A DNA stretch of 54,137 bases from Dehalococcoidia bacterium (GTDB taxonomy: Bacteria > Chloroflexota > Dehalococcoidia > Dehalococcoidales > UBA1222), in the NCBI GenBank assembly GCA_003597995.1, contig QZJY01000059.1, forward strand, positions 1 to 54,137, in the 5' to 3' direction. The position numbers were made by a program, and so were the translations under genes. The notes under the pieces are model-generated. The model was not told the origin of the DNA. It did not search any database and saw only the letters and a program-made list of their open reading frames with translations. This document shows, in pieces, positions 121-17,201 of this stretch (positions within the stretch are counted from its first letter, which is position 1; each line of letters starts with the position of its first letter).

Positions 121-900
121 CTAAAGGGTATTGCTCTTCAATTCGCACAACAGCTCTTTACAGAATCCAGCACCCATATCCGGTGCCGGCCTGCGGAAGA
201 AGGTGGTGTGCAGCGGCGTGATAGAGATATAGCCGTGCTCGACAGCCCAGATATCACTGCTGTCTGGCGATTGATGCTCCAGTTTGCGTCTCACCAGCCA
301 GAAATAGTCGCGCCTTCCGTCATTGCCTTCTTCCACGCTGTCGATATGGGTTTTATGCGTCGGCTGAGTCATAACGATGCCCTTGATTTTGGGAAGCGGC
401 ACGTCCGGCAGATTTACATTGAGGAAAATGTCGCGCGGGAGAGTTCCACTTTTAATGTACCCGACCAGCAGCCGTACCAAATTTGCGGCTGTTTCCAGGT
501 TTTCCGTATCAGAGTGTCCCACTGAAACAGCAATGGCCGGCAGGTTGCGCAGGTATCCCTGCAAGGCGGCTCCTACTGTGCCGGAGATAAGCACATCGTC
601 ACCCAGATTCTGACCGCTGTTGATGCCAGAAACCACAACTTCAGCCGTGGTAGCCAGTTTCTCAAGCGCCAGTATCACGCTGTCGCTGGGCGTACCTTCT
701 ACGCCATATGTGTTGACGTCCGGTACAATTGCAGCGACCTTACGCACTCTGAGCGGTTGGCGCAGCGTAACGCTGGTGCCGGTGGCGCTCTGCTCGCGGT
801 CTGGGGCAACAACCACGATACTATCGATTTTCTTAAGTTCGGTGGCAAGAGTCCACAGGCCAGGGGCAAAAATTCCGTCGTCATTGCTGATAAGAATCAT
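121..900 (-). CDS. surE: 5'/3'-nucleotidase SurE
   Basis: Survival protein SurE, a metal-dependent nucleoside monophosphate phosphatase of the cytoplasm. The protein begins with the family N-terminus MILISNDDGIFAPG, whose Asp-Asp pair binds the metal. An ATGTS segment follows, then the family motif SGINSGQNLGDDVLISGTVG. The reading frame is open for 49 codons further upstream, but family alignment and a promoter directly before the ATG at 900 favour 259 aa, the usual length. It diverges from the MetF-like gene. A possible promoter (-35 TTGAGC at 933-938, 17 bp, -10 TATCCT at 910-915, minus strand) would start transcription two or three bases before the ATG, so the mRNA may be nearly leaderless. 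Function is secure. The start is well supported by homology. Confidence 0.95.
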   Translation of the reverse strand: MILISNDDGIFAPGLWTLATELKKIDSIVVVAPDREQSATGTSVTLRQPLRVRKVAAIVPDVNTYGVEGTPSDSVILALEKLATTAEVVVSGINSGQNLGDDVLISGTVGAALQGYLRNLPAIAVSVGHSDTENLETAANLVRLLVGYIKSGTLPRDIFLNVNLPDVPLPKIKGIVMTQPTHKTHIDSVEEGNDGRRDYFWLVRRKLEHQSPDSSDIWAVEHGYISITPLHTTFFRRPAPDMGAGFCKELLCELKSNTL

Positions 901-959
901 AGCATGTGAAGGATACCATATCGACAGATCAGGCTCAAAACAAGGAGAACCGTATTTGT

Positions 960-989
960 TTGAAACTCGAAAACCCATTGTGCTATTAT
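960..989 (+). promoter_or_regulatory. Promoter of the MetF-like gene
   Basis: A -35 box TTGAAA (960-965) is followed after 18 bp by a -10 box TATTAT (984-989) with an upstream TG extension. Predicted transcription start is near 996, giving about a 16-nt leader to the ATG at 1012. No Shine-Dalgarno sequence is seen. Confidence 0.55.
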
Positions 990-1011
990 ATGGCACTTGG
1001 TTGCCATAAAG

Positions 1012-2625: not shown

Positions 2626-2725
2626 CTCAAGCCAGTATCCCGCTTCCGTTGATTCTCTAATCTTTTGTAGAATCCCCCTTCGATTGCTGACCTGACCTTC
2701 TGCATGATACTCTACACCTATCGCC

Positions 2726-3757
2726 ATGAAAACGAGTGACTTCGATTATCATTTACCACTTGAGCTTATCGCTCAGACTCCGGTTGAACCACGGGACAGC
2801 TCACGTCTGTTAGTGCTTAACAGGTCTGATGGCTCAATGTTGCATCGCAAGTTTCAACAAATAACCGACTTCTTAAAAAGCGGCGACGTCCTTGTCATGA
2901 ACAACAGCCGTGTCATTCCGGCCCGCCTGCTCGGCAGGAAAGCTGACACAGGGGCAGCCGTGGAGATACTCCTCCTCAGGCGTTCGGCTCTTTCCTTCGC
3001 CTGGGAGGCGCTGGTCAAACCGGGCAAGCGGCTGCCAGTGGGCACTGTCATCAATCTCGGAGAGGGTAGAGAGCCATCAGTCAAAGCGGAAATCCAGGCT
3101 GTGTTGCCCGACGGCCTCAGGGAGGTCAGCTTCTCCGATGAGCGCTTGCTTCCCGAACTCGGGCATATTCCCTTGCCGCCTTATATCCATACCCCCCTTA
3201 GCGATTCTGAGCGCTACCAAACGGTTTACGCCAGAGAGTCCGGCAGTGCGGCGGCGCCGACAGCAGGTCTGCACTTCACCCCGCAACTCCTCGCGGAGTT
3301 AAAGCAGAAGGGCATCGAGTGCCTGGAAACGACGCTTCACATTGGCCTGGACACCTTCCGCCTGGTGCAGACGGAAGACCCCACCCAGCATCATATCCAC
3401 CGCGAGTACGGCATCGTCTCCGCTGAGGTGGCCGCCCGTGTTTCAAAAGCCAAAGCTGAGGGCAGGCGTGTCATATGCGTGGGGACGACATCGGTGCGCA
3501 TTCTTGAGTATGTCGCCCGGAAGAGTACAAAAAATACCCTGGACTCATTTGAGGGGTGGGTGGACCTGCTCATCCTGCCCGGCTATCGCTTCCGCATCAC
3601 CGACGCCATGCTTACCAACTTCCACCTGCCGCGCTCGACACTGCTCATGCTGGTGAGCGCCTTCGCCGGCGCGGAACAAATCAAGAAAGCCTATGACGAA
3701 GCCATCGAGGGAAAATACCGTTTTTATAGCTTCGGCGATGCTATGCTTATCCTTTAA
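2726..3757 (+). CDS. queA: S-adenosylmethionine:tRNA ribosyltransferase-isomerase
   Basis: QueA transfers and isomerises the ribosyl part of SAM onto preQ1 in tRNA, making epoxyqueuosine. The 343-aa length is normal. Family signatures are present from the N-terminus (DFDYHLPLELIAQTPVEPRDSSRLL) to the C-terminus (MLTNFHLPRSTLLMLVSAFAG), including the central SGSAAAPTAGLHFTPQLL stretch. It starts with an ATG at 2726 and has no obvious Shine-Dalgarno site. No other queuosine gene lies nearby. It is convergent with the zinc-ribbon gene that follows, only 22 bp away, and no clear terminator sits between them. Function secure. Confidence 0.96.
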   Translation: MKTSDFDYHLPLELIAQTPVEPRDSSRLLVLNRSDGSMLHRKFQQITDFLKSGDVLVMNNSRVIPARLLGRKADTGAAVEILLLRRSALSFAWEALVKPGKRLPVGTVINLGEGREPSVKAEIQAVLPDGLREVSFSDERLLPELGHIPLPPYIHTPLSDSERYQTVYARESGSAAAPTAGLHFTPQLLAELKQKGIECLETTLHIGLDTFRLVQTEDPTQHHIHREYGIVSAEVAARVSKAKAEGRRVICVGTTSVRILEYVARKSTKNTLDSFEGWVDLLILPGYRFRITDAMLTNFHLPRSTLLMLVSAFAGAEQIKKAYDEAIEGKYRFYSFGDAMLIL

Positions 3758-3779
3758 TCTATTCCCACTAGGCCGTGTT

Positions 3780-5033
3780 TTATTTGCACTGGCTCATGGT
3801 TATACCGATGAAAACGAAAAAGGCTACGAAAACGAGCCCCGCCACTATCAGGAGCACCAGGCGCGTTGATTGCATGGGCTGGGCGCCAGACTCTTTCGCG
3901 ATTTGACTGAGGGCTTCGGCGGAAGGGATTTCCTCGGGCGCGAGGATGCCGTCCTTGGTCCACTTGCGGTAGAGACGCCTTAGCCTCCACTGCCCGCTGA
4001 CGAAATCCTTGAGCGGCTGGAGGGTCATGGACATCCAGACCGTGATTTTGGGCCACAACGGCTCTCCGGAGGCCTCGGGCGTTGTGGAGGGGACGACGTG
4101 CATGGTCGGCAGCAGAGGATGTGCCGGCTTGGGCTCAGGTTTGGATTCTAAATATGGTGACGATTTGACAGACGGTTCCGCTACCTCTTCGTTTACCAGT
4201 TTGCTGATGTCCTCGCGGCTGGGCATTGGAGGAGGGGTGGCCGTTTCGGTTACCTTAGGGGTTGCCAGCTCGGTGATGTCTTCACGGCTGGGGGCGGCAC
4301 GGCGCACGGGTATCTCACACTCTGGAGGAGGCGGAGCAGCCTGGGGCTGTTCTGCTTCGGTGCCACCTTCTAGTAGAGTAATTCTTTGGCCGCAGCGCAG
4401 GCAGAACTGAGAACCGGGCGGGAGCTTCTGACCGCAGGCGGCGCAGAAGGATACCTCCACAACGGGCGGTTCCTCGCTTACAGGTTGCGGGACGTCTTTG
4501 AGGGCAGTGGCAGGCGGAACCGTTGACGTTTCATGGCGCGGAGGAACTGTTTCTTCACTGGCAGGCGGCGGCTCTTCATGCCGGACAGGCTTTTCTATCA
4601 CAGTCTGCGGGATTTCCTCCGGTGTTTCAGACGGCGGTTTACTGGCCGTTTCTATCACTGGTGGCGTGATTTCCCGCTGGAGCCGTTCGCGATTCTCCCT
4701 CTCCCATCTCATGTACGGCGTTTCTTCGATGTCCGTCTTGGAGACTTCCGAGCGAGCGCTGGCGAGAGTAGGTTGCTCCGGTTCGCAGCTGACGGGTGGT
4801 GCTTCCTCGACCACATGGAGCGGGGTTTCCTCGCGCACAGGCGCGGCAGGAGGCTCCTCCGGTTTTGGCGCGACACCGGATTCTGCATTTGGGGCTGGCG
4901 CGATATCTTCATCCTTTTGAAGGGGTAATTCTGCTTGGGGTTCAACCATGCGTTGCTCGCAGTAAGGGCAGATAATGAGTTCTTCAGGGGTTAATTTGAT
5001 GTATATCTTATGCCCGCATTTAGGACATTCCAT
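3780..5033 (-). CDS. Zinc-ribbon membrane protein with long Pro/Glu-rich linker
   Basis: Unrecognised 417-aa protein. The N-terminus is a zinc ribbon (CPKCGHKI, then CPYCEQRM). About 150 residues rich in Pro, Glu and Thr follow. A second ribbon lies near residue 205 (CAACGQKLPPGSQFCLRCGQ), then another Pro/Glu-rich stretch containing SREDI repeats. Near the end is a basic region, and the last ~25 residues form one hydrophobic helix ending in SQCK. The likely layout is a C-terminal membrane anchor with the ribbons in the cytoplasm. The linker suggests a flexible scaffold. There is a good GGAGG site before the ATG. A second zinc-ribbon/Pro-rich membrane protein at 23.6 kb has a similar theme. 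Function unknown. Confidence 0.75.
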   Translation of the reverse strand: MECPKCGHKIYIKLTPEELIICPYCEQRMVEPQAELPLQKDEDIAPAPNAESGVAPKPEEPPAAPVREETPLHVVEEAPPVSCEPEQPTLASARSEVSKTDIEETPYMRWERENRERLQREITPPVIETASKPPSETPEEIPQTVIEKPVRHEEPPPASEETVPPRHETSTVPPATALKDVPQPVSEEPPVVEVSFCAACGQKLPPGSQFCLRCGQRITLLEGGTEAEQPQAAPPPPECEIPVRRAAPSREDITELATPKVTETATPPPMPSREDISKLVNEEVAEPSVKSSPYLESKPEPKPAHPLLPTMHVVPSTTPEASGEPLWPKITVWMSMTLQPLKDFVSGQWRLRRLYRKWTKDGILAPEEIPSAEALSQIAKESGAQPMQSTRLVLLIVAGLVFVAFFVFIGITMSQCK

Positions 5034-5068
5034 AACAGACCTCCAAGCGAGTAACTACATTCGTTGCG

Positions 5069-5074
5069 ATTATA
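5069..5074 (-). promoter_or_regulatory. -10 box of the zinc-ribbon gene
   Basis: A perfect TATAAT on the minus strand, about 36 bp upstream of the ATG at 5033, with a GGAGG ribosome binding site in between. The -35 region (around 5092-5098) is poor. Confidence 0.45.
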
Positions 5075-5190
5075 ACACAGGCCATTTTGTAATGAAAACC
5101 ATCCGCAAGATTAGTCTCTTAGTGCCCGGAAGCACAGGGTTTGGCTGGAGAAATATACGCACCATGGAGGCCACTACAGGAATAATAAAT

Positions 5191-5245
5191 ATTCTTCTCC
5201 CCTTTTGCGGGGGAGTTAAGAGTGAGGGGTAAAGTCATTGAATCT
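5191..5245 (+). repeat. Dispersed repeat, family R2
   Basis: Begins ATTCTTCTCC, has a C-rich/G-rich hairpin (CTCCCC...GGGGGAG), then TAAGAGTGAGGG and ends GTCATTGAATCT. A close copy is at 47731-47783. It lies just upstream of the hpt promoter. Confidence 0.6.
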
Positions 5246-5260
5246 CAACTGAGGCAGGTA

Positions 5261-5289
5261 TGGACTGCCTGTGGTTTTCAGGCTATAAT
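5261..5289 (+). promoter_or_regulatory. hpt promoter, probably leaderless
   Basis: A -35-like TGGACT (5261-5266), a 17-bp spacer and a perfect -10 TATAAT (5284-5289). Only five bases separate the -10 box from the ATG at 5295, so transcription should start at or next to the A of the start codon. There is no room for a Shine-Dalgarno sequence. Confidence 0.65.
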
Positions 5290-5294
5290 CACGC

Positions 5295-5822
5295 ATGATG
5301 ACAGAATTGCAGGTTCTACTAACGCAACCTGAGATTGCTTCCGCCGTCAGGCGTCTGGCCGGTGAAATCAGCAGCGACTACCGCGATAAAAATCCTCTTG
5401 TTCTCGGTGTTCTCAAAGGCTCCTTCATTTTTTTGGCCGACCTGGTGCGCCTGCTCGATTTCCCACTCGAGGTGGATTTCGTCACACTTTCAAGCTATAA
5501 AGAGCAAACCGAGAGCTGTGGCGATGTTAGCATGGACAGGTGCTTTGCTGCCGATATCAAAGACCGGCACGTGCTGGTGGTGGAAGACATCGTGGATACC
5601 GGCCTTACTCTGCATTTTTTGCTGGACCACGTGCACGCGGAGTCGCCTGCCTCGCTCCGCCTGTGCGCCCTGCTGAATAAACCTTTGCGGCGTAAGATTC
5701 CCGTCAGCATAGACTATCTGGGATTTACCATTCCCGATAAGTTCGTCGTCGGCTACGGCACGGACTGCGCCGAAAAATACCGCAATCTTCCCGATATCCG
5801 CTGTATTGAAAATGGAGATTGA
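5295..5822 (+). CDS. hpt: Hypoxanthine phosphoribosyltransferase
   Basis: A 175-aa cytoplasmic type I phosphoribosyltransferase that turns hypoxanthine (and often guanine) plus PRPP into IMP (GMP). The PRPP loop VVEDIVDTGLTL with its acidic pair is intact, as are the GVLKGSFIFLADL segment and the C-terminal DKFVVGYGTD motif of the Hpt family. Two ATGs stand in tandem at 5295 and 5298. The promoter position favours one of them as the first base of the mRNA. It overlaps the start of adenine deaminase by 11 bases. The pair forms a salvage route in which adenine is deaminated to hypoxanthine and then recovered as IMP. Function secure. Confidence 0.95.
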   Translation: MMTELQVLLTQPEIASAVRRLAGEISSDYRDKNPLVLGVLKGSFIFLADLVRLLDFPLEVDFVTLSSYKEQTESCGDVSMDRCFAADIKDRHVLVVEDIVDTGLTLHFLLDHVHAESPASLRLCALLNKPLRRKIPVSIDYLGFTIPDKFVVGYGTDCAEKYRNLPDIRCIENGD

Positions 5823-7536
5823 TACGTTGAAGCGAACATTGGAACTTATCGAGGTGGCGCGAGGACTCAAACCCGCTGACCTTATACTTTCCAACGCCCG
5901 CATCGTCAACGTTTTCAACGGCGAAATTGAAAAGGGAAACGTAGCCATCTATGGCAGTCAAATCGCCGGCATCGGAGATTATCATCTTGCGCGGGAAATT
6001 ATCGATATAAAGGGACAATATCTTGTTCCCGGCCTCATCAACGGACATACGCACGTCGAAAGCTCGATGCTGGATATCGGGCAGTACGCCAGCGCAGTCA
6101 TCCCGCATGGCACTCTGGGCGTCGTCACCGACCTGCACGAGATAGCCAATGTAAGCGGAATCAAAGGCATCGATTACATTTTGAGCGCTTCTCGCCATCT
6201 CCCTTTCGAGTTTTTCGTGATGGCACCTTCGTGCGTGCCAGCAACCCACCTTGAGACTTCGGGAGCTGGCATCGATGGCAAGGCATTGAGACATCTGCTG
6301 AGGCGCAAAGAGGTCATCGGCCTCGGCGAGATGATGAACTACTCGGGCGTCCTCTCCGGCGATACAAACGTTCTGGATAAGATTGAGGCTTCACGAGGCA
6401 AGCCTGCCGACGGTCATGCCCCCGGTCTAAGTGGTCGCGACCTCAACGCCTATATCGCCTCCGGAATCTCATCCGACCATGAATGCGTAACGCTTGAAGA
6501 GGCATGTGAAAAGCTGGCTCGCGGTATGTACGTCATGATACGCGAGGGTTCGTCCGAAAAGAACCTGGAAGCCCTTCTGCCGATGGTTACCGACTTGACG
6601 TATAAACGCTGCCTGTTCGTAGTGGACGACCGTAGTTGCACAGATCTTTTACGCGACGGCGATATAGACGCGGTAGTGCGTAAGGCCATCCGGCTTGGTC
6701 TAGAGCCTGTAAGGGCTATTCAACTGGCAACCATTAACACAGCCGAGCGCTTCGGGCTGAAACGTATTGGCGCCGTAGCGCCGGGTTACCTTTCTAATCT
6801 AATTGTCACGACGGATTTGAATCGTTTGGATGCTCGTCTAGTCTTTCATCGAGGGAGACTGGTCGCTCACGACGGTCAGTTTTTATATAAGCCGAAGGCA
6901 AACAGCAAACGAAATCTCGAAAATACGGTCATGGTCAAGCCTTTCGGCCCAGAAGCACTACGTTTTACTTCTCCAGGTGAGGCCTTCCCCGTTATCGAAG
7001 TCATTCCTGGCCAGATAATCACGCGCAAGCTAAAACTAAAGGTAAGGCGCGACCAAAACGGATTCATTATCTCCGACGTGGAACGGGATGCCCTCAAGCT
7101 GGTGGTCGTGGAACGGCATAAGGCCAGCGGCAACATTGGCAGGGGATTAGTCAAAGGTTTCGGCCTTAAGCGCGGCGCGCTGGCGTCCTCTGTGGCTCAC
7201 GACTCGCACAATATCGTGGCTGTAGGGACAAATGATATAGACATACTGACCGCCATTCGGGAAGTCATCGCCATGCAGGGGGGCCTGGCAGTAACTGGGG
7301 ACGGACGCATCCTGGCGAGCTTGCCTCTGTCCGTGTCTGGTTTGATGTCGGATAGACCTCTAGCGGAAGTAGTTAAGAATTTCGCCTGCCTGGAGGAAGC
7401 CGCTAAAGAGCTTGGTTGCGGATTAGCCGCTCCCTTCGACGCGCTCTCGTTTCTGGCCTTGCCGGTGATACCGCAGCTGCGGCTGACCGACATGGGGCTG
7501 GTGGATGTAAATGCTTTTAAAATAATCCAGACGTAA
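5812..7536 (+). CDS. ade: Adenine deaminase
   Basis: Converts adenine to hypoxanthine and ammonia. The 574-aa length fits the bacterial Ade family of the amidohydrolase superfamily. Visible motifs are the metal site GHTHVESSMLD, GLGEMMNYSGVL, DGHAPGLSGRDLNAY with its His, the SSDHECVT segment and the C-terminal GTNDIDILTAIREV domain typical of Ade. The first ATG at 5812 lies within the end of hpt. A TTG at 5806 is possible. The overlap with hpt indicates translational coupling and a shared job in purine salvage. No frameshift or missing residue is seen. Repeats of family R1 lie just downstream and may stop transcription. Confidence 0.95.
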   Translation: MEIDTLKRTLELIEVARGLKPADLILSNARIVNVFNGEIEKGNVAIYGSQIAGIGDYHLAREIIDIKGQYLVPGLINGHTHVESSMLDIGQYASAVIPHGTLGVVTDLHEIANVSGIKGIDYILSASRHLPFEFFVMAPSCVPATHLETSGAGIDGKALRHLLRRKEVIGLGEMMNYSGVLSGDTNVLDKIEASRGKPADGHAPGLSGRDLNAYIASGISSDHECVTLEEACEKLARGMYVMIREGSSEKNLEALLPMVTDLTYKRCLFVVDDRSCTDLLRDGDIDAVVRKAIRLGLEPVRAIQLATINTAERFGLKRIGAVAPGYLSNLIVTTDLNRLDARLVFHRGRLVAHDGQFLYKPKANSKRNLENTVMVKPFGPEALRFTSPGEAFPVIEVIPGQIITRKLKLKVRRDQNGFIISDVERDALKLVVVERHKASGNIGRGLVKGFGLKRGALASSVAHDSHNIVAVGTNDIDILTAIREVIAMQGGLAVTGDGRILASLPLSVSGLMSDRPLAEVVKNFACLEEAAKELGCGLAAPFDALSFLALPVIPQLRLTDMGLVDVNAFKIIQT

Positions 7537-7565
7537 AGAGAAAACTTACCCCTCACCTTTTCCCG

Positions 7566-7596
7566 AATACCCCGACCATTGTGGTCGAGGGATGTA
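7566..7596 (+). repeat. Dispersed palindromic repeat, family R1
   Basis: AATACCCCGACC, short loop, GGTCGAGGGATGT. A near copy follows at 7636-7666 and an inverted copy lies at 49-79. It sits between the convergent ade gene and the exosortase operon. Confidence 0.6.
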
Positions 7597-7635
7597 GTTC
7601 GCCGCGAAGCGGACCGAACGAAGTTCGTATCTGTT

Positions 7636-7666
7636 AATACCCCGATCGTAAGGTCGTGGGAAGTTT
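7636..7666 (+). repeat. Dispersed palindromic repeat, family R1
   Basis: AATACCCCGATC, loop, GGTCGTGGGAAGT: the second direct copy, 70 bp after the first. Between the copies is another GC-rich inverted repeat (GTTCGCCGCGAAGCGGAC then GAACGAAGTTC). These hairpins may act as a two-sided transcription stop, though no clean T-run is present. Confidence 0.55.
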
Positions 7667-7735
7667 ATTCCCGAGAACACTTCTCTCAGATATCAGGGTT
7701 GCCGCAGGACCCTTGTTACTCGCCAAACAGCTACA

Positions 7736-8443
7736 TTACTGAGTCGCAACGATGATAATCATCACAACCTTGGTGTAGACTATGCCCATGAAGATAAATA
7801 GCAGAATCCAATTGGCAGTAGAAAGCTTGATTCTTAGCTTTCCCAGAAAAGCATAGGTTTTACCACCGACCACAGGTTGCATTAACTCAAAGAAGATAAG
7901 TATGGCGATAAGAACTATGGCGACAAGGATACCAACATTGAGTCCCATATCCGCGCCAAAGGTAGTCTGGTAATAGGTCATGCTGATCATCGAACTCATT
8001 ATCGATGTAGAAAATGAGGCAAAACTAATAAAGCTCGACCAGATCTGCGGAGGATACGGCGGTGTGGAGATCTCCATTCGGTCATTCCCGAGTTCCGACT
8101 GGGTCTTAACCAAGAAGTTCAGTTGCTGGCCTGTATCGAGAGGATTCCTGTAGGCGTACTGGTAGGTCTTGCTGGCCCCGGGGGATAAAATGGTCTCCTG
8201 GTCTTGCAGAATCGAGCCGTTAATAAAAAACTGGTAGCTGACCGGCAAAGCGCGTGAGGATGGGTTGTTCAATTTAAAAGTGACTACTACCGGTTCTCCC
8301 TGTCTGGGTACTTGCGGCATGACTGCCATAGATATCGGGGAAGACGTATCTCTTACTGACAACCAGAAGCTGCCAAGAAAAACTATGGTCAACCATACCA
8401 TAATTAGCTTAAATGTTGCGCCTTTGGCAACGCTTTGTTCCAT
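7736..8443 (-). CDS. Membrane protein with extracellular Ig-like domain, last gene of exosortase operon
   Basis: Unrecognised 235-aa protein. A hydrophobic helix at residues ~13-30 is followed by an external domain of about 100 residues that looks like a CARDB/Ig-type beta fold (PRQGEPVVVTFKLNNPSSRALPV..., with a later LSPGASKTYQY). A Pro-rich turn and a hydrophobic Ser/Met-rich stretch follow. Two strong membrane helices come near 168-192 and at the end. The gene starts four bases after the exosortase stop, so the two are cotranscribed. The small protein at 10225-10602 has a similar membrane-plus-beta layout. A role in holding or presenting the sorted substrate is inference only. Confidence 0.7.
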   Translation of the reverse strand: MEQSVAKGATFKLIMVWLTIVFLGSFWLSVRDTSSPISMAVMPQVPRQGEPVVVTFKLNNPSSRALPVSYQFFINGSILQDQETILSPGASKTYQYAYRNPLDTGQQLNFLVKTQSELGNDRMEISTPPYPPQIWSSFISFASFSTSIMSSMISMTYYQTTFGADMGLNVGILVAIVLIAILIFFELMQPVVGGKTYAFLGKLRIKLSTANWILLFIFMGIVYTKVVMIIIVATQ

Positions 8444-8446
8444 AGC

Positions 8447-9388
8447 TCATTCCCCTACTGCCGGCAGACCTGAAAGTTGTCGGTTGTCCCACGGCCTTTG
8501 CGGTCGCTTCACCTGCCGCAGGTAAACATAAGCAAATATGATAAACCATATCGGGAAAAAGATATATATTGTCCAGGAATGGGCTGTCTGCAGGGCATTC
8601 CATCCAAAATAATAGCCAACCAACAGCAGAAACACCATCCTGAAGAAACTCTGAAACCAGGTGCCGACCAAACCAGAAAGAAAAATCCAGACGGCCTTCC
8701 GCGGTGGCAGGGGCATGTCCAGCATCATCAGAGTGAACAAGGCCAGGAAAACTCCCATGGTAGCCGGCCCGGCACAGGCAGCGGTAATGGCTACCGATAT
8801 AGTTCCGCCGCCGCTAGTAACAAAGTTTACCCATTGCCCTTGGTTTTGAAACGAGTACCCCAGCGCGGTCAGCAGACCTATCACGGGTGTAATAGCCGCG
8901 CGGGAATAGGCTTCTTCAAAAAACCGCTCGATAACCAACGGGGCGGAAACAGCTAGTCCGTAGATGACAAGGCAGATGGCAGGGAATCGGCTTCCCTTAC
9001 CGAAAATGATGGTGAAAAGGCCCAGCGATGCCAGCAGAACCTGGAACACCAGGAAATCGCGTGAAAATGGTACCAGAATTGCCGTTGCCAGCATAACCAG
9101 ACCCAGCAAGGCATATGCCGGGTTTGTTCCGAGGTTCATCTGTGCCCAGACCACTTTCCTTTTCAGCCACAGGAATAGCAGGCATAAGGCCAGTATTCCC
9201 CATGGTGAGGCATGGAACTGTCCGAATATCCAGTCGGGAGAGAGCATCACAGGCAGGCTGCGCCAGAATTCGCGGAAGAAGATGGCAGAGAGCAATAGAG
9301 CCAGAGCCAAAAACCCTAGCAGTTTGGTGGTTGCACGATTGCTGAGCCATGCTCGTGAATTTTTTATAATGGTTGCCATCATTTTCAT
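8447..9388 (-). CDS. Exosortase/archaeosortase family transpeptidase
   Basis: A 313-aa multi-pass inner-membrane protein. It carries the three conserved exosortase residues in the right order: Cys205 in AACAGPATMG, Arg250 in SFFRMVF and His270 in QTAHSWTIYI. Members cut a C-terminal sorting signal and are thought to pass the protein to a membrane or cell-wall anchor. Several hydrophobic helices precede the catalytic core, as in the family. Its start overlaps the end of the CPBP protease by four bases. The 920-aa protein at the head of the operon, with its PEF-type tail, is the obvious substrate. The subtype cannot be named by eye. Archaeosortase C-like specificity is a guess based on the PEF tail. 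Confidence 0.88.
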   Translation of the reverse strand: MKMMATIIKNSRAWLSNRATTKLLGFLALALLLSAIFFREFWRSLPVMLSPDWIFGQFHASPWGILALCLLFLWLKRKVVWAQMNLGTNPAYALLGLVMLATAILVPFSRDFLVFQVLLASLGLFTIIFGKGSRFPAICLVIYGLAVSAPLVIERFFEEAYSRAAITPVIGLLTALGYSFQNQGQWVNFVTSGGGTISVAITAACAGPATMGVFLALFTLMMLDMPLPPRKAVWIFLSGLVGTWFQSFFRMVFLLLVGYYFGWNALQTAHSWTIYIFFPIWFIIFAYVYLRQVKRPQRPWDNRQLSGLPAVGE

Positions 9389-10221
9389 TTCCCAAATAGA
9401 TATGGCATAACTGCGACCAGCAGCACATTGCCGACGGCATGGGCCATAATCGGTGCTAGCAGACTTTTTGTTTTCAAATACAGGCCACCCAGAAAGAGCG
9501 CGGCAATGAATACAAAACCCAGTTCAGCAATTGAGCGCCATGTCAGATGCATCACGGTAAAAAGGAATGAGGCGCCGAACAGCCCCCAGCGCCATCCAAA
9601 GGCCTTGACAAGGTCTTGCTGAATCAGGCCGCGGAATAAAAGCTCCTCGCCCAAACCTACAAACAGGAGCATATACGCAAAATCCCGCAGGAAATACTGT
9701 AACTCAAATGTGGGGAAGGCTGCAGCCGGTCGGAGCACGAAATATTCGGCTACCCCCAGCGGAATACCAATAAATGTGCCTATCAGTATGTATTTCAGCA
9801 CTTTTTGCTTGCTGATATTGAAAATTTGCTTCAGGTTCAGCTTGTGGCTGTAAACGTACCACAGGCAAAGCACCAGGATGCAGGAATAAACCGCCGGGAG
9901 GAGATACTGTTGATTGATGAAGAACCACGGCAGGGAAGATGTGAACAGGATATACAGCGGGATGAGGGCCAGCGACTCAGCGCAGCTGGCTATATTCTCG
10001 TCAAAACGTAGAGCGGAGAGCACGAAATAGATGACCATCGCCAGAACAAGCGCAATAACGATGCCATAGGCTACGTTCTGATAGGTGAATACGTATTCGC
10101 AGACAGCTATGGTAACTGCAATAGCCACAATGAACCAGGCCTGCCAGCGTCTGCTCCTCGCCGAGCCATCGGGGTGCGCCCGGATGGTCCCCTGTGTAAC
10201 TTCTGATGCGATTCTGTCCAT
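9385..10221 (-). CDS. CPBP family intramembrane metalloprotease
   Basis: A 278-aa protein with about eight hydrophobic helices. It carries the CPBP (CAAX protease and bacteriocin-processing) motifs: Glu192-Glu193 in GLGEELLFRG with Arg197, His225 in FTVMHLTW and His261/Asn265 in MAHAVGNVLL. The active site faces the membrane. Some exosortases are fused to or neighbour a CPBP protease, so a shared role in maturing the sorted protein is plausible. It is the third gene of the operon, four bases after the small membrane protein and overlapping the exosortase start. Residues 1-25 are polar and cytoplasmic. Family assignment is firm, but the substrate is unknown. Confidence 0.88.
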   Translation of the reverse strand: MDRIASEVTQGTIRAHPDGSARSRRWQAWFIVAIAVTIAVCEYVFTYQNVAYGIVIALVLAMVIYFVLSALRFDENIASCAESLALIPLYILFTSSLPWFFINQQYLLPAVYSCILVLCLWYVYSHKLNLKQIFNISKQKVLKYILIGTFIGIPLGVAEYFVLRPAAAFPTFELQYFLRDFAYMLLFVGLGEELLFRGLIQQDLVKAFGWRWGLFGASFLFTVMHLTWRSIAELGFVFIAALFLGGLYLKTKSLLAPIMAHAVGNVLLVAVMPYLFGK

Positions 10222-10224
10222 GAT

Positions 10225-10602
10225 TTACCTTAGATAATAGGTGCCCTGTTCGAATGGCGCGCCCTCGCCATCCTTGCTAATCTTGACCTGCATCTCTCCA
10301 TTCGTCAGGTCGCTTGCAGGGATCTGGTGAATATAGGTAAAAAGCCCCCCGGAAACTATCTGGCAGCTCTCTTGATAAGGCTTGCCATCCACGTTGATAT
10401 AGATATTGTATCTGGCATCCTCGCTGGCGTGGTTGGTGATATCAAATTGCAGAATCCACCCATTTGCCGTTTCAATCAGGCTCTCACGGGATATCTCGGA
10501 GTATTTCGGCGCACTTCCCATCAGTGGCCAGATGAAAACGCGTGCCAGGAGCACTCCCAGTACCACCAGTGAAATAGCGAGGAAAATTCTAAACTTCAAC
10601 AA
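10225..10602 (-). CDS. Small membrane-anchored protein of exosortase operon
   Basis: Unrecognised 125-aa protein. One N-terminal hydrophobic helix (about residues 4-27, IFLAISLVVLGVLLA) is followed by a short link and about 80 residues outside. These look like one beta-sandwich domain (GWILQFDITNHASEDARYNIYINVDG...), similar in style to the domain in the gene at 7736-8443. It overlaps the 3' end of the 920-aa protein gene by 14 bases and ends four bases before the protease start. The tight packing points to a dedicated accessory factor for the sorting system. Chaperone or anchor receptor are possibilities only. Confidence 0.68.
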   Translation of the reverse strand: MLKFRIFLAISLVVLGVLLARVFIWPLMGSAPKYSEISRESLIETANGWILQFDITNHASEDARYNIYINVDGKPYQESCQIVSGGLFTYIHQIPASDLTNGEMQVKISKDGEGAPFEQGTYYLR

Positions 10603-13351
10603 GAGCCAGCCTCTTCTTTTTCATCCAGTAGTAAATGGCAGAGCAAAGCCCGGCCACAGCGATAGCAGCAAATATAGTGGAGAATTCGGGTATGGCGTCC
10701 GCCTGGACGGTGAAACTGTGGTCGGCCAGGGCATTTGCCCAATTCGCATCGTAGGTATCCGGAGCTATGTTGCCTATATAGCTCACCACCGCATGCCATG
10801 TGCCCGCATCGGACGTGCCCATGTAAGTAGTAAAGAGAATTTGGGCGTCGAGATTGGAGCCATCAACCCCATCCACTACTAGTTTTTTATGGGCATCGTC
10901 AAAGCCACCACCGCCCCCATCGGCATCGTAGAACGTAACATGATATAGCGCACCCGAGGTAAGGTTGACCGAACGCATATAACCTGTGGTTTCCGGGCTG
11001 CCGAAAATATCATCCGGCACAGTCCGTTCAGCGTCGTTATAGGACAACCAGTTTAGCTGCCCTACCGCAAAATCGCTGAATGCCGTCAGTCCTGTCGTCT
11101 GAATTGTCGTAGATGTCCGCGTGCCCACGGTCGGATATGTCCAGCCGCCGGTATATTTTCCCACGATAAAGAGGCCGGTGCTGGCTCCGCCGTCTACTTC
11201 ACCGGAAACAAAGGTAAACGTCGCAGTGTAGTTATCAAATGCAAGGCTGCCGTCTTGCGTCATAGTCCAATATGCATTAACGCTCGCGCTCGAATCAATG
11301 GCGGAGGTAGCGATATTGCCATGTTCTCCGTTGGCCGAGTTGACGGTCAGGTTTCCCGCGACGCTGACGTTGCCGAAGGCTACGGTCACTGGGTTATAGT
11401 AACTGGCTGTGCCCACCTCAAAGGTTCTGGACGTAGCACCCGTCGCCACGTTCTTCTGCAGGTTGCCGTTGACATAGCTGCTGCTGCCGCCGGAAACGCT
11501 GCCGGTTGAAGCGATTGAAAGGGTATTGGCCCCGGTGGTGACTATGCCGCTGGTCAGGGTCAGTGTGTAGTTTATGGTTTTGGAGCCGCCCAGGGTGATG
11601 CCGGAAGCGTTGTTGATGATGACGCCGCCTGTGCCGGTGAACGTTGACGGGAACTCTGAGTTGGTAGTTTGAGCGGCACTTCCCTTGTATTGCAATGTAG
11701 CTGCTGCGCCGTAGGAGAGCGTGCCGGTTACGGTAGTTGTGGCCGTACTTTCTATTGAAAGAATGCCGTTGACGGTAGTTGTGCCGGCTGGAAATGTTTT
11801 TGCGTTAGAGCCGGAGAGAGTAAGGTTGCTATAAGTTGTTGCTATCACTGTCTGAGTGCCGGCGCCACTGTAATTGACTGTATTACCGGCCACGGTTGCG
11901 GTCAGAGTTGTGATTGTAGGTACGGTGGGAGTAGTGCTGATGTTAAGCGTGCTCGTGGAGGTGGCATTATTAAAACTGGTAATTGTACTCGAACCGGAGT
12001 GGTTAACTATACCACCGGCATTGTTGGTGATGCCGGTAATTGCTCCCGAATCAGTGATGTTGATTGTGCCTGTGTTGGTAAAATTGGCAAGAGCGGTGGT
12101 AGTTGTGCCCGCGGCAGAGCGGTTAATGATGCCCGCATTAGTAAGGGTGGTAATTGCACAAGAACCAGCGCCAGCGCCGCTGAGGTTAAGTATACCAGTT
12201 CCACTGTTTGTTAATGTACCTGCTCCGGTCAGAGCTGTGCTAACTGACAGGGTGCCGTTGTTGGTATAAGTGCCTGTTACTGCGACATTAGCAATTGAAG
12301 TAGTAGTAGACCCGCTTATTACCTTGGTCGCGCCGGAAAATGTATGGGTACCTGCGTTGGCAGTGAAGGTAGTGGCGTTATTCGTAAGGTTGCCGGCCAG
12401 GTCTATGCTTGCTATTCCGGTTTCGTTCCAGACCCCTCCGGAATTGAGTGTAACGTCTCCGGTAAAAGTTTTGGTCCCTTTATTGGCAAGCGTCAGTGTA
12501 CCGGTAACTGATGTGGTTCCTGTAACGCTGAGGGTATAACCCTTACCCGCACCGGTGGCGAAAGTAGTTCCACTTCCAACATCAAGATTGCCGCTGACAG
12601 TCAATGCCGCTTTAGTCGTCGCGGTTGCCGTCCCGCTCAGTGTAAAGTTGCCACCTATGGATGTGATAGCGTTTCCCATAGTCTTGGCACCGCTGCCGAA
12701 GAGAGTAAGGCTGTTGGGATAAGCCGCATTTAAAAGAGTTTGTGCGGTGCCACTATAGTTAATGTCACCGGCTGTAAGAGTGACTGAGCCGCCCTTAATG
12801 GCAAGGCTGCCAGAGATAAAGAGTGTTCCTGCACTTTTATTTACTGTGACACTACGGAATGTGTTGGCACCGGCGACCGTCTGGTCGCCGGTGCCGTTGA
12901 AAGTGATAATCCCTCTGTTGGTGGTAGTCCACGTGCCGCTAAAGCTCCAGTTGCCGCCGACGTTGATGGCGGAGCCCTTGCCTGAGGGGGTGATTGTTCC
13001 GGCACCGCTGACATCGCCACTAACGGTCAGTGCGATGTTGTTGGTTATTGTAAGGGTACCGGTTACAGTTATACTGGCGCAAGCTGAGGCCACGTTGACT
13101 GTGATAGGGGAGCCCACTGCAATTGTGACTATATCACCGGCAACGGGGATTTGCGCAGGACTCCAGCTTGTGGTTGCATTCCAGTTGCCTCCTGCTCCGG
13201 TGCTGGTTATGGTCGCTCCGCGGACCGGCGCCGGCATAAGCACCAGCCCTGCCAGGCCAATGCTCAGCGCCAATAAAAACGAGAGCGCCAGCCTTGCCGC
13301 CAGTGAAACCGGCAAGACAAAACAATTTATCTTTAGCCGCATACGCGCCAT
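10589..13351 (-). CDS. Large secreted beta-rich surface protein with PEF-type C-terminal sorting signal
   Basis: A 920-aa protein with an N-terminal signal peptide (hydrophobic core at residues ~20-38, ending APVRGA). A GGNWNATTSWSPAQIP segment, common at the start of bacterial adhesin-like repeats, follows. The next ~550 residues are rich in Thr, Ser, Gly, Asn and Val, with loosely repeated strands (VTVNKSAGTLFISGSL, GTLTLANKGTKTF and similar). This is typical of a beta-solenoid or filamentous surface protein. From ~residue 690 there are less repetitive domains. The tail is IPEFSTIFAAIAVAGL, more hydrophobic residues, then WMKKKR. This PEF motif, membrane helix and basic cluster is the layout of exosortase/archaeosortase sorting signals. 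It is the first gene of the operon and the probable substrate of the exosortase. A second ATG at 13342 is an alternative start. Confidence 0.85.
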   Translation of the reverse strand: MARMRLKINCFVLPVSLAARLALSFLLALSIGLAGLVLMPAPVRGATITSTGAGGNWNATTSWSPAQIPVAGDIVTIAVGSPITVNVASACASITVTGTLTITNNIALTVSGDVSGAGTITPSGKGSAINVGGNWSFSGTWTTTNRGIITFNGTGDQTVAGANTFRSVTVNKSAGTLFISGSLAIKGGSVTLTAGDINYSGTAQTLLNAAYPNSLTLFGSGAKTMGNAITSIGGNFTLSGTATATTKAALTVSGNLDVGSGTTFATGAGKGYTLSVTGTTSVTGTLTLANKGTKTFTGDVTLNSGGVWNETGIASIDLAGNLTNNATTFTANAGTHTFSGATKVISGSTTTSIANVAVTGTYTNNGTLSVSTALTGAGTLTNSGTGILNLSGAGAGSCAITTLTNAGIINRSAAGTTTTALANFTNTGTINITDSGAITGITNNAGGIVNHSGSSTITSFNNATSTSTLNISTTPTVPTITTLTATVAGNTVNYSGAGTQTVIATTYSNLTLSGSNAKTFPAGTTTVNGILSIESTATTTVTGTLSYGAAATLQYKGSAAQTTNSEFPSTFTGTGGVIINNASGITLGGSKTINYTLTLTSGIVTTGANTLSIASTGSVSGGSSSYVNGNLQKNVATGATSRTFEVGTASYYNPVTVAFGNVSVAGNLTVNSANGEHGNIATSAIDSSASVNAYWTMTQDGSLAFDNYTATFTFVSGEVDGGASTGLFIVGKYTGGWTYPTVGTRTSTTIQTTGLTAFSDFAVGQLNWLSYNDAERTVPDDIFGSPETTGYMRSVNLTSGALYHVTFYDADGGGGGFDDAHKKLVVDGVDGSNLDAQILFTTYMGTSDAGTWHAVVSYIGNIAPDTYDANWANALADHSFTVQADAIPEFSTIFAAIAVAGLCSAIYYWMKKKRLALVEV
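10688..10690 (-). other. Start of PEF sorting motif (Pro888 codon)
   Basis: Marks the Pro of the Pro-Glu-Phe motif, 33 residues from the protein's end. A ~17-residue hydrophobic run and a Lys/Arg cluster follow it. The cleavage point is not known and may lie next to this motif. Confidence 0.6.
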
Positions 13352-13398
13352 ACTTTATTTTTCATCCCCCACCTCATTCTACAATCAAGAGGTGTTCA

Positions 13399-13414
13399 GT
13401 GTGATTGCTCACAC
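13399..13414. promoter_or_regulatory. Possible operator palindrome upstream of the sorting operon
   Basis: GTGTGA-TTGC-TCACAC, a perfect 6+6 inverted repeat about 50 bp before the ATG of the surface protein gene. A -10-like TAGAAT lies between it and the gene on the minus strand. The pattern fits a dimeric repressor or activator site. No regulator is encoded nearby. Confidence 0.4.
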
Positions 13415-13762
13415 AAGAAATAATTCTAAAATTTTATAAACGCTTCAGTATAGCACCTACTGAACCAGCCTGGTTTCCAAAACACTACCTTTGCCGCCAG
13501 CGTGGCAGATAAAATTGTTAGTATTGCTTTGGAGATTTACAATCATTTCAATTCGAAGCATTTTAGTGGTTTGCCAGGGCGTTGTAAGTGACCACCATCA
13601 CTATTTATCAGGTTTCTCGTCATGCAGCTCGTGCAAATGCGCAAAACATCCCTCCCGGGTGTAATACTTACCTATTCTATTGTTTTCTATATTATCGTGA
13701 AATCATTTACCATATATAACTATAAAGGGACACAGAAATGCATAAGGTGTCTAAATATACCG

Positions 13763-13795
13763 AATGAGCCAAAGCGGCTATGGCTTTGGCTCATT
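13763..13795. repeat. Perfect 13-bp inverted repeat
   Basis: AATGAGCCAAAGC, 7-nt loop, GCTTTGGCTCATT. There is no T-run on either side, so a classic terminator is unlikely. It could be a transcript-end hairpin, a protein site or the tip of a small mobile element. Confidence 0.6.
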
Positions 13796-13810
13796 GTTGC
13801 ATTGACTCCA

Positions 13811-13850
13811 ATATTTTTAGTACACATTAGATATTTTTAGTATATATTAA
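13811..13850 (+). repeat. 20-bp tandem direct repeat
   Basis: Two adjoining 20-bp units, both starting ATATTTTTAGTA and differing at three positions. They lie 15 bp after the perfect hairpin. Very AT-rich, so they may be a bent-DNA or protein-binding stretch. Confidence 0.5.
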
Positions 13851-13978
13851 GTACATAACGTTAGTCAAATAAATAAGAACAGATGACCTACTTCAAGCAC
13901 GGCATGTCTCCAGATTACAATAACCCTCAGAAACAAACGGAGATCGCGCTTCACTAATCGAATAAACAAAACACCACC

Positions 13979-14007
13979 TTGACAAACAGCGGCTGGGCAA
14001 ATAGAAT
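13979..14007 (+). promoter_or_regulatory. Promoter of the pantothenate operon
   Basis: A perfect -35 TTGACA (13979-13984), 17-bp spacer and -10 TAGAAT (14002-14007). This is one of the best promoters in the window. Predicted start is near 14014, giving about 130 nt of leader before the first gene. Confidence 0.75.
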
Positions 14008-14013
14008 TAATCT

Positions 14014-14145
14014 GCAGGCGACCGTGGAGACACGGCGTCGAGCTTTTTAGGTAATCGGACAATTTAGTCGCTTGGATCGCAAGACCGAGACGGCAGGTAA
14101 TGGAGCTATTCGACCTCCGCCGCTTTCTCGGTGGAGGTTTTTGTT
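14014..14145 (+). ncRNA. Structured leader of the pan operon, candidate pan-type regulatory RNA
   Basis: From the predicted transcription start the leader holds a hairpin CCGTG-GAGA-CACGG (14022-14035). It also has two copies of AGGTAAT (14049-14055 and 14095-14101) and a possible long-range pair between TCGAGCT (14038-14044) and AGCTATTCGA (14104-14113). It ends in a terminator-like hairpin. The long-range pair touches the 5' arm of that hairpin, so the two could exclude each other as in a riboswitch. A 'pan' RNA motif is known upstream of pantothenate genes in Chloroflexi, Firmicutes and Deltaproteobacteria. Whether this leader matches its consensus was not checked. Confidence 0.55.
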
Positions 14146-14148
14146 TTG
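14113..14148 (+). terminator. Terminator-like hairpin that includes the ribosome binding site
   Basis: Arms ACCTCCGCCG (14113-14122) and CGGTGGAGGT (14129-14138), one G-T pair, 6-nt loop, followed by TTTTTGTTTT. The 3' arm contains GGAGG (14133-14137), the Shine-Dalgarno site for the TTG start at 14146. Formation of the hairpin would stop transcription, hide the ribosome site, or both. Confidence 0.7.
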
Positions 14149-15039
14149 AACAGGGATTTGCCCCGTCTGGGTTTTATCGGCGCCGGAACGGTAGCCACTG
14201 CCTTGGCGTGTGCTCTGCACGGCAAGGGCTATCCTGTGATGGCAGTTGCCAGCCGCAGCTTTTCATCGGCGCAAAGGGTAGCGAAACTTATCCCTGATTG
14301 CCGGCCATGCCCGTATAAACAGCAGGTCATCGATTGCTCGGACATAATTTTTATCACCACTCCGGACGACGTTATCGCGCGGGTGGCTGGAGAGCTCAGG
14401 TGGCAGGCGGGCAAGAGCGCCGTGCATTGCAGCGGGGCGGATTCAAGCGGAATTCTAAGCAAAGCCAAATCCGATGGCGCACAGACCGGCGTTTTCCATC
14501 CTTTGCAAACGTTCGCGGGAGCGCAGCGCACAGCAGAAGCTCTGTATGGTATCACCTTTTCCCTTGAGGCCGAAGAGCCGTTGCTGACACAACTTAAGCA
14601 GATGGCGGAAGCACTCGGAGGGCGATGGTTCGTCCTTATACCTGATGCCAGGGTACTCTATCATGCTTCTGCTGTTATGGTAAGTAACTATCTGGTCACG
14701 CTGGTGAAACTGGCTACGGAGCTGTGGCCCGATTTTGGCGTAACGCGCGAAGAGGCAACCAGGGCGCTGCTTCCGCTTATTAAAGGCACAGTCAATAATA
14801 TAGAAACTCTCGGCTTGCCGGGCTGCCTCACTGGGCCTATTTCAAGGGGCGATACGGGGACGCTCAAAAAGCATTTACAAGCACTGAGCAAGAGACACAA
14901 CGTCATCACATCCGCCTATTGTGAGCTTGGATTACAGACCGTACCTGTAGCCCTGAAAAAGGGCAGGATAGACGCATCGAAGGCTCAGGAGATCGTCTCT
15001 ATTCTGTCTAACTCGGCAAGCGAAAGGAGCAAAACATGA
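14146..15039 (+). CDS. Rossmann-fold oxidoreductase with DUF2520 domain, possible ketopantoate reductase
   Basis: A 297-aa protein. The N-terminus is an NAD(P)-binding Rossmann fold ([17 protein letters not shown]), and the C-terminal half is the DUF2520 alpha-helical domain. Related genes often sit with panB, panC and panD. The window has no standard panE, and the pathway needs an enzyme to reduce ketopantoate to pantoate, so this is a candidate for that step. IlvC, also encoded here, can do this reaction in some bacteria. The frame is open to a GTG at 14131 inside the terminator stem. The TTG at 14146 is preferred because GGAGG stands eight bases before it. A TTG at 14158 is also possible. 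The gene overlaps panD by four bases (ATGA). Confidence 0.78.
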
Positions 15040-15413
15040 GAACCATGCTGAAGAGTAAGATTCACCGGGCGCGCGTGACGGGCGTGCATCTGGATTATGA
15101 GGGCAGTATAGCCATCGACCGCGAGTTGCTGGCCGAGGCCGACATACTGCCTCACGAGCAGGTGCATATCCTCAACCTCAATAACGGGCAGCGCTTTACC
15201 ACCTATGCCATCGAAGGGGAAAAAGGGCAGGTGGACCTCAGAGGAGCGGCGGCAAGACTGGCGCAGAAGGGCGATATCGTCATCATATTGACTTATTGCC
15301 AGATGCAGGATGAAGAAGCCCGCAGCTACGAGCCAAGAGTGGTCTATGCCGATGAGCAGAATCGTATCAAGGATAAAGTCCGGCAACTGTTTTCAATGGA
15401 GGTTGACGAGTAG
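15036..15413 (+). CDS. panD: Aspartate 1-decarboxylase
   Basis: Makes beta-alanine from L-aspartate for pantothenate synthesis. The 125-aa precursor is of normal size. Self-cleavage is expected between Gly23 and Ser24 in YEGSIAID, giving the pyruvoyl group on the new alpha chain. The [12 protein letters not shown] segment and the GDIVIILTY strand are as in the family. The start ATG overlaps the stop of the DUF2520 gene. An 115-bp gap holding two repeat elements separates it from panB, so panB may depend on read-through or its own signals. Confidence 0.95.
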
Positions 15414-15415
15414 GT

Positions 15416-15440
15416 GTAGGGGCACGGCATGCCGTGCCCG
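15416..15440. repeat. Palindromic repeat, family R5
   Basis: GTAGGGGC-ACGGCATGCCGT-GCCC, a near-perfect palindrome right after panD. Similar units stand at 27392, 27812 and 27847. The same GTAGGGGC...GCCC pattern is common between genes in several phyla. Confidence 0.6.
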
Positions 15441-15450
15441 TTCGAAGTCC

Positions 15451-15495
15451 GTCTCCTCTCCCCTCAAGGGAGAGGAGACAAGGTGAGGGTGAGAG
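15451..15495 (-). repeat. Dispersed hairpin repeat, family R3
   Basis: A strong hairpin, GTCTCCTCTCCC facing GGGAGAGGAGAC, followed by AAGGTGAGGGTGAG. On the minus strand it matches 47785-47832. It could pause transcription between panD and panB. Confidence 0.6.
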
Positions 15496-15528
15496 TTGGG
15501 ATGTTGTAATTCGGATGGAGGAAATCCC

Positions 15529-16371
15529 ATGCGCGTGAATATTAACCAGATAAAAGAAATGAAGCAGAATGGTGAGAAAATCGCCATGCTCACCGCATAC
15601 GACTATGCCACTGCAAAGATAGTAGATGAGGCCGGCGTGCCGCTCATCCTGGTGGGCGATAGCCTGGGGATGGTGGTGCTAGGCTATGATTCTACCATCC
15701 CGGTGACTATGGACGTCATGATTCATCACACTAAAGCGGTATCTCGCGCTGTGAAAAACGCTATCGTCATCGGCGACATGCCCTTCATGAGCTATCAGGT
15801 GAGCATTGAAAAGACTCTGGAAAACGCAGCCCGATTCATGCAAGAGGGTGGTGCGCAGGCAGTCAAGCTTGAGGGCGGTGTGAGCGTGGCCGCGACAGTA
15901 AAACGTATCGTGGACTGCGGCATTCCGGTCATGGGACACATCGGCCTCACTCCCCAGTCCATCCATCAGCTTGGCGGTTTCAAAGCGCAGGGAAAGACTC
16001 TGGAAACCGCCGACCGTTTAATTAAAGATGCGCTGGCGCTGGAGGAGGCGGGAGCTTTTGCCGTTGTCCTGGAAACAATGCCGGCGGAGTTGTCGCGACT
16101 CATCAGCCGCAAGCTGAGCATACCGACTATAGGCATCGGTGCCGGAGCGGGCTGCGACGGGCAGGTGCAGGTTATCAGCGATATGCTGGGTCTGTTCACC
16201 GATTTTGTGCCCAAACACGCCAAACAGTACGCTCATATTGCCGACATTATGTCGAGCGCTGTGTCGCAATACGCCCAGGAAGTGAAAACAGGCGTTTTCC
16301 CAACCGACAAGGAAAGCATCTCGATGGACGAGACCGTTCTGGCGAAACTCGAAAGACGGAATAGCGAATGA
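15529..16371 (+). CDS. panB: 3-methyl-2-oxobutanoate hydroxymethyltransferase
   Basis: PanB adds a hydroxymethyl group from methylene-tetrahydrofolate to 2-ketoisovalerate, giving ketopantoate. The 280-aa protein has the family motifs MLTAYDYATAKIVDEAG, the metal site GDSLGMVVLGYDSTIPVT, VKLEGG and GHIGLTPQSIHQLGGF. The start chosen is the ATG at 15529, seven bases after GGAGG (15517-15521). The frame is open upstream, but that part is not PanB-like. It overlaps panC by four bases (ATGA). Its substrate comes from IlvD, encoded at 42.6-44.3 kb. Confidence 0.96.
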   Translation: MRVNINQIKEMKQNGEKIAMLTAYDYATAKIVDEAGVPLILVGDSLGMVVLGYDSTIPVTMDVMIHHTKAVSRAVKNAIVIGDMPFMSYQVSIEKTLENAARFMQEGGAQAVKLEGGVSVAATVKRIVDCGIPVMGHIGLTPQSIHQLGGFKAQGKTLETADRLIKDALALEEAGAFAVVLETMPAELSRLISRKLSIPTIGIGAGAGCDGQVQVISDMLGLFTDFVPKHAKQYAHIADIMSSAVSQYAQEVKTGVFPTDKESISMDETVLAKLERRNSE

Positions 16372-17201
16372 AAGTAATACGAAATGTCGCCGGGATGAAG
16401 GCGATTCGTAAAACGTTGGCCGAGCCTGTTGGCTTCGTGCCGACTATGGGCTTTCTGCATGCAGGACACATCTCTCTGGCGAGCCAGTCAAAGAAAGATA
16501 ACGCTTCCACTATTGTCAGCATCTTCGTCAATCCCACCCAGTTCGGGCCCAAAGAGGATTTCGATAAATATCCCAGGGACGAACAGCGCGACCTCGCCAT
16601 GCTGGAAAAAGCGGGGGTGGATATTACTTTCCTGCCCTCAGCACACGAGATGTATCCGAGTGGTTTCAATGCATGGGTGGAGGTTGAAGGCATCACGACG
16701 AGGCTGGAAGGAGCTGTACGCCCGGGGCATTTCAAGGGAGTGGCAACAGTATGCAACAAACTCTTCAACATCGTCCAGCCCTCGAAGGCTTATTTCGGGC
16801 AGAAAGATGCCCAACAGGTGCTGGTCATCAAAAAGATGGTGTCCGACCTGAATATGAATCTAGAGATTGTGGTCATGCCGACTCTGCGCGAGGCCGACGG
16901 CCTGGCCATGAGCAGCCGCAACTCCTACCTCAAACCAGACGAGCGAAAAGCGGCGACGGTGCTCTACCGCGCCCTGCTCAAGGCTAAAGAAATGAGGCGG
17001 GCGGGCGAGCACAATGCGGAGAGTCTCCGCGAAGCGATGACTGAGCTCATACAGGCTGAACCTCTGGCTAAAATCGACTACGTCTCAATCGCCGACGCCG
17101 CCACCTTGCAGGAGCTTGAACATCTACACTCGCAGACGCTGGTTTCGCTGGCGGTCAGAGTCGGCGAGGTTCGTCTGATAGATAACGTTTTGCTACCTTG
17201 A
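16368..17201 (+). CDS. panC: Pantothenate synthetase (pantoate-beta-alanine ligase)
   Basis: Joins pantoate and beta-alanine using ATP. The 277-aa length is standard. The nucleotide-binding motif PTMGFLHAGH is present, along with the FVNPTQFGPKEDFDKYPR segment, the GHFKGVATVCNKLFN stretch, GQKDAQQ and the loop MSSRNSYL. It is the last gene of the operon, overlapping panB. The tRNA cluster starts 65 bp later behind its own promoter. Function secure. Confidence 0.96.
   Translation: MKVIRNVAGMKAIRKTLAEPVGFVPTMGFLHAGHISLASQSKKDNASTIVSIFVNPTQFGPKEDFDKYPRDEQRDLAMLEKAGVDITFLPSAHEMYPSGFNAWVEVEGITTRLEGAVRPGHFKGVATVCNKLFNIVQPSKAYFGQKDAQQVLVIKKMVSDLNMNLEIVVMPTLREADGLAMSSRNSYLKPDERKAATVLYRALLKAKEMRRAGEHNAESLREAMTELIQAEPLAKIDYVSIADAATLQELEHLHSQTLVSLAVRVGEVRLIDNVLLP

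Follow-up and report, generated by a model that had tools for sequence, protein, structure and literature searches.

The window analysed here is a stretch of 54,137 nucleotides, positions 1 to 54,137 of the forward strand of contig QZJY01000059.1 from the Dehalococcoidia bacterium assembly GCA_003597995.1. In the ORF list of the window, positions 7736-13351 hold five adjacent reading frames arranged as a tight operon, all on the minus strand, as a preliminary description of this DNA had proposed (Table 1). That description also gave 3-4 bases for every overlap or gap. This held for three junctions (a 3-base gap between the 125-aa and CPBP genes, a 4-base overlap between the CPBP and exosortase genes, and a 3-base gap between the exosortase and 235-aa genes) but not for the first, where the substrate and 125-aa genes share 14 bases when the latter is read from its TTG start, which is backed by homologues. 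The operon is flanked by an adenine deaminase gene on one side and by a DUF2520 protein gene and panD/panB/panC on the other; as these flanking genes run on the opposite strand, it stands alone. By pattern scans only, the upstream region (13763-13868) also contains a perfect 13-pair stem-loop and a 19-base direct repeat with a spacing of 20 bases.

Table 1. Features of the five-gene locus in the window, and regulator genes of related loci.
Feature	Position	Strand	Characteristics
Putative substrate, 920 aa	10589..13351	-	N-terminal signal peptide, beta-rich repeat body, ~130-aa C-terminal module, IPEF-TM-basic tail
Sorting tail IPEFSTIFAAIAVAGLCSAIYYWMKKKRLALVEV	10592..10693	-	invariant PE; best library match PEF-CTERM
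Accessory protein 1, 125 aa	10225..10602	-	TTG start; one TM helix and 7-strand Ig-like sandwich
CPBP (Rce1-like) intramembrane glutamic protease, 278 aa	9385..10221	-	PF02517 and invariant motifs
Exosortase/archaeosortase-family protein, 313 aa	8447..9388	-	TIGR04178; predicted catalytic C205/R250/H270
Accessory protein 2, 235 aa	7736..8443	-	TM, CARDB/Ig-like beta domain, motif SSFxSFAxFSTSxM, two TM
Possible promoter TTGACT-18-TATACT (sigma-70-like)	13763..13868	-	operon upstream region; pattern scans only
FUR-family regulator genes	L015:10851-11459, L017:2073-2480, L018:8562-8990, L019:4344-4760, L020:11225-11671		in or near related modules

The product of 8447-9388 was placed in the exosortase/archaeosortase family by TIGR04178, with 38.2 bits against a curated cut-off of 23 (41.7 bits in the genome search). 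It is a multi-TM protein with eight hydrophobic segments, and the Cys/Arg/His residues previously pointed out in it are C205, R250 and H270, which are invariant in 16 homologues. None of the named subfamily models reached its cut-off; archaeosortase C (TIGR03762) gave 19.5 bits where 100 are required. The same pattern was seen in all ten exosortases of the order, which match both TIGR04178 and, below its cut-off, the archaeosortase C model (best E 2e-10). Because the window protein lies below every named-subfamily cut-off, a changed activity, with cleavage and without transfer, is possible. No exosortase relative was found among solved structures.

The CPBP protein matched PF02517 with 65.7 bits (cut-off 22.4). 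The EE/H/H motifs claimed for it were recovered as E192-E193-xxx-R197, H225 and H261-xxx-N265 (EExxxR, H, HxxxN), again invariant in 16 homologues. Against the myxosortase model NF040914 it reached 40.4 bits, short of the cut-off of 100, and all Mrt models scored under their cut-offs on it. All ten CPBP members of the order weakly matched the myxosortase core and further Mrt families, and seven and nine of them showed a below-cut-off likeness to TIGR04162 and TIGR03008, respectively.

The remaining two products had been described as small beta-domain membrane proteins. "Small" fits the 125-aa protein but not the 235-aa protein, which has three hydrophobic segments as well as a beta domain. Searches of the HMM library and Pfam found no family model for either. 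AlphaFold2 models were built with two-row alignments as input. That of the 125-aa protein (mean pLDDT 85.7) gave the single helix and sandwich listed in Table 1; its best fold match covered 89 residues at 2.2 A with a VIA-align Z of about 11. The matches, RbmA and GH2 domains among them, were Ig-like sandwiches of a generic kind and point to no function. The most frequent weak Pfam match was DUF1616 (PF07760), in six of nine members. Since the model of the 235-aa protein was poor (pLDDT 57), its structure matches were left unused. This protein carries the near-invariant stretch SSFxSFAxFSTSxM at residues 136-149. A relationship to the substrate module was rejected (hhalign probability 0.2), and one to the 125-aa protein is weak at most (10.6). 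The idea of strong homologues outside the module was rejected, as the three weak hits in the class (G292, G321, G425) are CARDB-like domains in unrelated proteins.

The 920-aa protein ends in IPEF, a TM segment and KKKR. This tail, IPEFSTIFAAIAVAGLCSAIYYWMKKKRLALVEV, is the only C-terminal IPEF with a TM segment in its genome, which bears out the earlier suggestion that the first gene has a matching sorting tail. The best library match, PEF-CTERM (TIGR03024), scored 14.3 bits (E 0.035), below the cut-off of 23. When tails were compared across genomes, PE was invariant in 17/17. A Cys lies inside the predicted tail helix in 13 of these 17; at tail position 17, mid-helix, it is invariant in the 13 tails of the near clade (from G000, G060, G061, G065, G074, G119, G123, G124, G128, G150 and G164). 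Four distant module loci have no tail Cys, namely G240, G208, G226 and G304 (a partial locus with two tails), and the Cys was accordingly rejected as a universal feature; the count of 17 takes in G240, G208 and G304, and the G226 tail was read separately.

The window genome (1.80 Mb, 95.5% complete) encodes one exosortase and one copy of the substrate's C-terminal module, and the tail search found no second tail protein in it. It has 16 IPEF-coding sites, only one of which is C-terminal with a helix behind. The module, tail and IPEF-codon searches thus rejected the idea of many hidden substrates. As the protein next to the exosortase is the only tail-bearer in the window genome, the claim of a dedicated one-substrate system is supported there. 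Across the order, each exosortase genome has one or two copies of the substrate module; a second tail protein occurs in at least two relatives, G060 and G123 (in G123 it carries an endonuclease/phosphatase domain), and probably also in G304. Between genomes, the ~130 residues that precede the tail are conserved and the rest of the cargo differs, being a beta-repeat in the window, a subtilase in G065, papain and lectin-like domains in G119, a C39 peptidase in G150 and CBM96 in G226. With a conserved tail-proximal module and varying cargo, the system therefore looks like a carrier for whatever each lineage displays.

The distribution of the five families was followed in 156 genomes of the order, a 393-genome sample of the class and a 400-genome sample of the phylum. 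An exosortase was found in 10/156 genomes of the order, and all ten also carry the other four families. At strong scores the substrate module was present in exactly these ten (two hits near E 1e-3 were ignored), and the 235-aa protein in the same ten and also, next to a contig edge, in G070 (another two hits of about E 1e-3 were likewise ignored). All ten loci also yielded a 125-aa gene (with a short ORF in G074) and a CPBP gene, and the CPBP gene adjoins the exosortase gene in all but one of the order genomes. In the class sample, strong exosortase hits were obtained in ten genomes, nine of which had strong hits to the 235-aa protein; no such strong hit was found in this sample outside exosortase genomes. 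In the phylum sample, only weak exosortase hits were seen outside the class.

A search for this gene order in Dehalococcoidia found it, exactly, in eight genomes: within the order in G000, G124, G128 and G123 (the last gene being cut by a contig end in G124 and G123), and outside it, in further orders of the class, in G164, G240, G226 and G208 (the 235-aa gene lying in two frames in G240). The tail-bearing protein was present in the homologous operons; together with the family placement of 8447-9388, this means that neither outcome named as refuting in the preliminary description occurred. In G074, G060, G065, G119 and G150 the module genes lie in two or three blocks, and in G061 they run as 125-aa gene, CPBP gene, a 670-aa frame shared by exosortase and substrate, FUR gene and 235-aa gene; because the genes are rearranged or split in these six genomes, the operon is not essential. 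Co-occurrence in 10/10 genomes of the order and an order kept in eight genomes indicate that the association is more than chance; for the 235-aa protein, Fisher p was about 1e-15 to 1e-17 on the assumption of independent genomes, which these are not. For the four machinery families, r between their pairwise distances is 0.82-0.92 (0.90 for CPBP and exosortase). This fits inheritance as a unit, but shared species history gives the same pattern. The five genes are a recurring module and an obligate set.

The congener G110, 97% complete, is without the module. When its locus (L121) was compared with window positions 1-17201, the surE-metF-queA-hpt-ade segment was inverted with respect to the pan genes, and surE adjoined the DUF2520 gene, with the module absent at that junction; the module, patchy in its presence, is therefore located at a rearrangement breakpoint and is gained or lost. 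The shared frame of exosortase and substrate in G061 (L020:9209-11221) is either a natural fusion or an assembly indel. It was not taken as fact, because its TTGATG junction would be an ordinary stop/start overlap given one upstream indel. Five of the ten loci of the order have a FUR-family regulator gene within the module or close to it, and metal-linked regulation is possible; the window genes examined next to the operon included none. Three modules have histidine kinase and response-regulator/receiver genes immediately upstream (L017:2537-5346, L020:3798-7937, L097:176-6051), and tail-less subtilases neighbour three (L018:9197-11407, L019:5228-7903, L015:11356-12432); the tailed substrate of G065 is a subtilase as well.

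We interpret the module as a dedicated system for surface-protein sorting with one exosortase and one target, and put the probability of this reading at roughly 0.7. The 920-aa protein would be exported by Sec until its C-terminal helix halts it in the cytoplasmic membrane, leaving IPEF on the outside and KKKR on the inside. Through C205/R250/H270, the exosortase would then cut at or next to PE-F and pass the new C-terminus of the substrate to an acceptor with an amine group; as these bacteria are wall-poor monoderms, a membrane lipid is the most plausible one. In favour of a lipid, the substrates of archaeosortase A are anchored to lipid (PMC7157517), the nearest named relative is archaeal, and Dehalococcoidales, the group in which its relatives place the window, have reportedly lost peptidoglycan, a loss that preceded their radiation (PMC10284905). 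The acceptor is nevertheless a guess, since the conserved set has no lipid- or glycan-transfer gene; even for archaeosortase A, the exact cut site and the acceptor are both still unknown (PMC11980579). For the other partners it is from their obligate linkage that we infer roles: the CPBP protease would most likely clear or further trim the leftover membrane tail, or mature a component of the system, and the two beta-domain membrane proteins would most likely associate with the exosortase, in a complex presenting the substrate's conserved C-terminal module.

A sharper form of this dedicated-module reading, compatible with it, is a two-step relay in which the exosortase cuts at PE-F and transfers the protein, the CPBP protease works on that tail within the membrane, and both steps are needed. 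The near-constant adjacency of the CPBP and exosortase genes, their correlated distances, the known exosortase-CPBP fusions (PMC1569441) and the resemblance of the CPBP protein to TIGR04162 in seven of ten members argue for it; contact of the protease with the substrate tail is nonetheless conjectural, and we regard the relay as a tentative proposal. Similarly speculative is the view of a previously undescribed five-part membrane sorting system, with the exosortase, the CPBP protease and the two Ig-domain membrane subunits as one machine on a single target. In it the two different intramembrane proteases might process one tail successively, and binding of the conserved module beside that tail by the beta subunits might allow unrelated cargo to be swapped in.

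The CPBP protein could also be the real sorting protease, cutting near the intramembrane Cys after lipidation in the manner of a myxosortase, with the exosortase homologue in a supporting or later role. Its invariant catalytic motifs, the weak Mrt matches throughout the order and the Cys-17 of 13/17 tails point that way, as myxosortase requires an invariant Cys in its tails (PMC11980579). However, the distant loci G240, G208, G226 and G304 lack this Cys, it lies mid-helix here and before the helix in MYXO-CTERM, and every Mrt model stays below its cut-off, which makes this explanation improbable. Least probable is a signalling or proteolytic-release device whose cargo is shed after cleavage and not anchored: secreted hydrolases (subtilase, papain, C39) among the cargo of relatives and two-component genes beside three loci would suit it, but the conserved set includes no regulator, and in other exosortase-type systems with such tails the products stay on the cell surface (PMC11980579).

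Taken as a dedicated sorting module, the locus suggests an archaea-like route of surface anchoring in bacteria without peptidoglycan. One enzyme, one substrate and a small fixed set of partners in five linked genes make a good minimal system for reconstitution, and two obligate partner families without a name have now been identified.

The preliminary description held that this was not a described set. The literature, in a search mostly outside subscription papers, yielded no Chloroflexota exosortase system of such make-up, and the missing accessory family models agree with the claim; the pairing of exosortase and CPBP protease, in contrast, was already known (PMC1569441). The closest system is archaeosortase C/PEF-CTERM (TIGR03762/TIGR03024), in which ArtC is reported to recognise PEF-CTERM (PMC5244752). 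The ArtC matches in all ten exosortases of the order and a tail nearest to PEF-CTERM recall it, whereas here the scores are far below the curated cut-offs, the host is bacterial, and a CPBP protease and two beta-domain partners accompany what is usually one target. Exosortase E/protease VPEID-CTERM (TIGR04162; cf. XrtE) and TIGR03008 (PEP-CTERM CAAX protease-related) share the combination of an exosortase with a CPBP/CAAX protease, for which fusions were noted in 2006 (PMC1569441). The present system differs in its tail, its two extra partners and its below-cut-off scores, and, unlike the fused chain of TIGR04162, has exosortase and CPBP as separate genes in every locus read. One enzyme beside one tail-bearing target is likewise found in MrtJ/JDVT-CTERM (PMC11980579) and in the single-target rhombosortase, such dedicated enzyme-target pairs having been noted in 2011 (PMC3237569), but those are two-gene sets with another enzyme class and here there are five genes. 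The beta domain of the 125-aa protein weakly matches DUF1616 (PF07760) proteins (E 0.024 at best, not significant), and the 125-aa protein has one TM only. What is new here is the obligate five-gene set and its two unnamed accessory families, one of them with SSFxSFAxFSTSxM.
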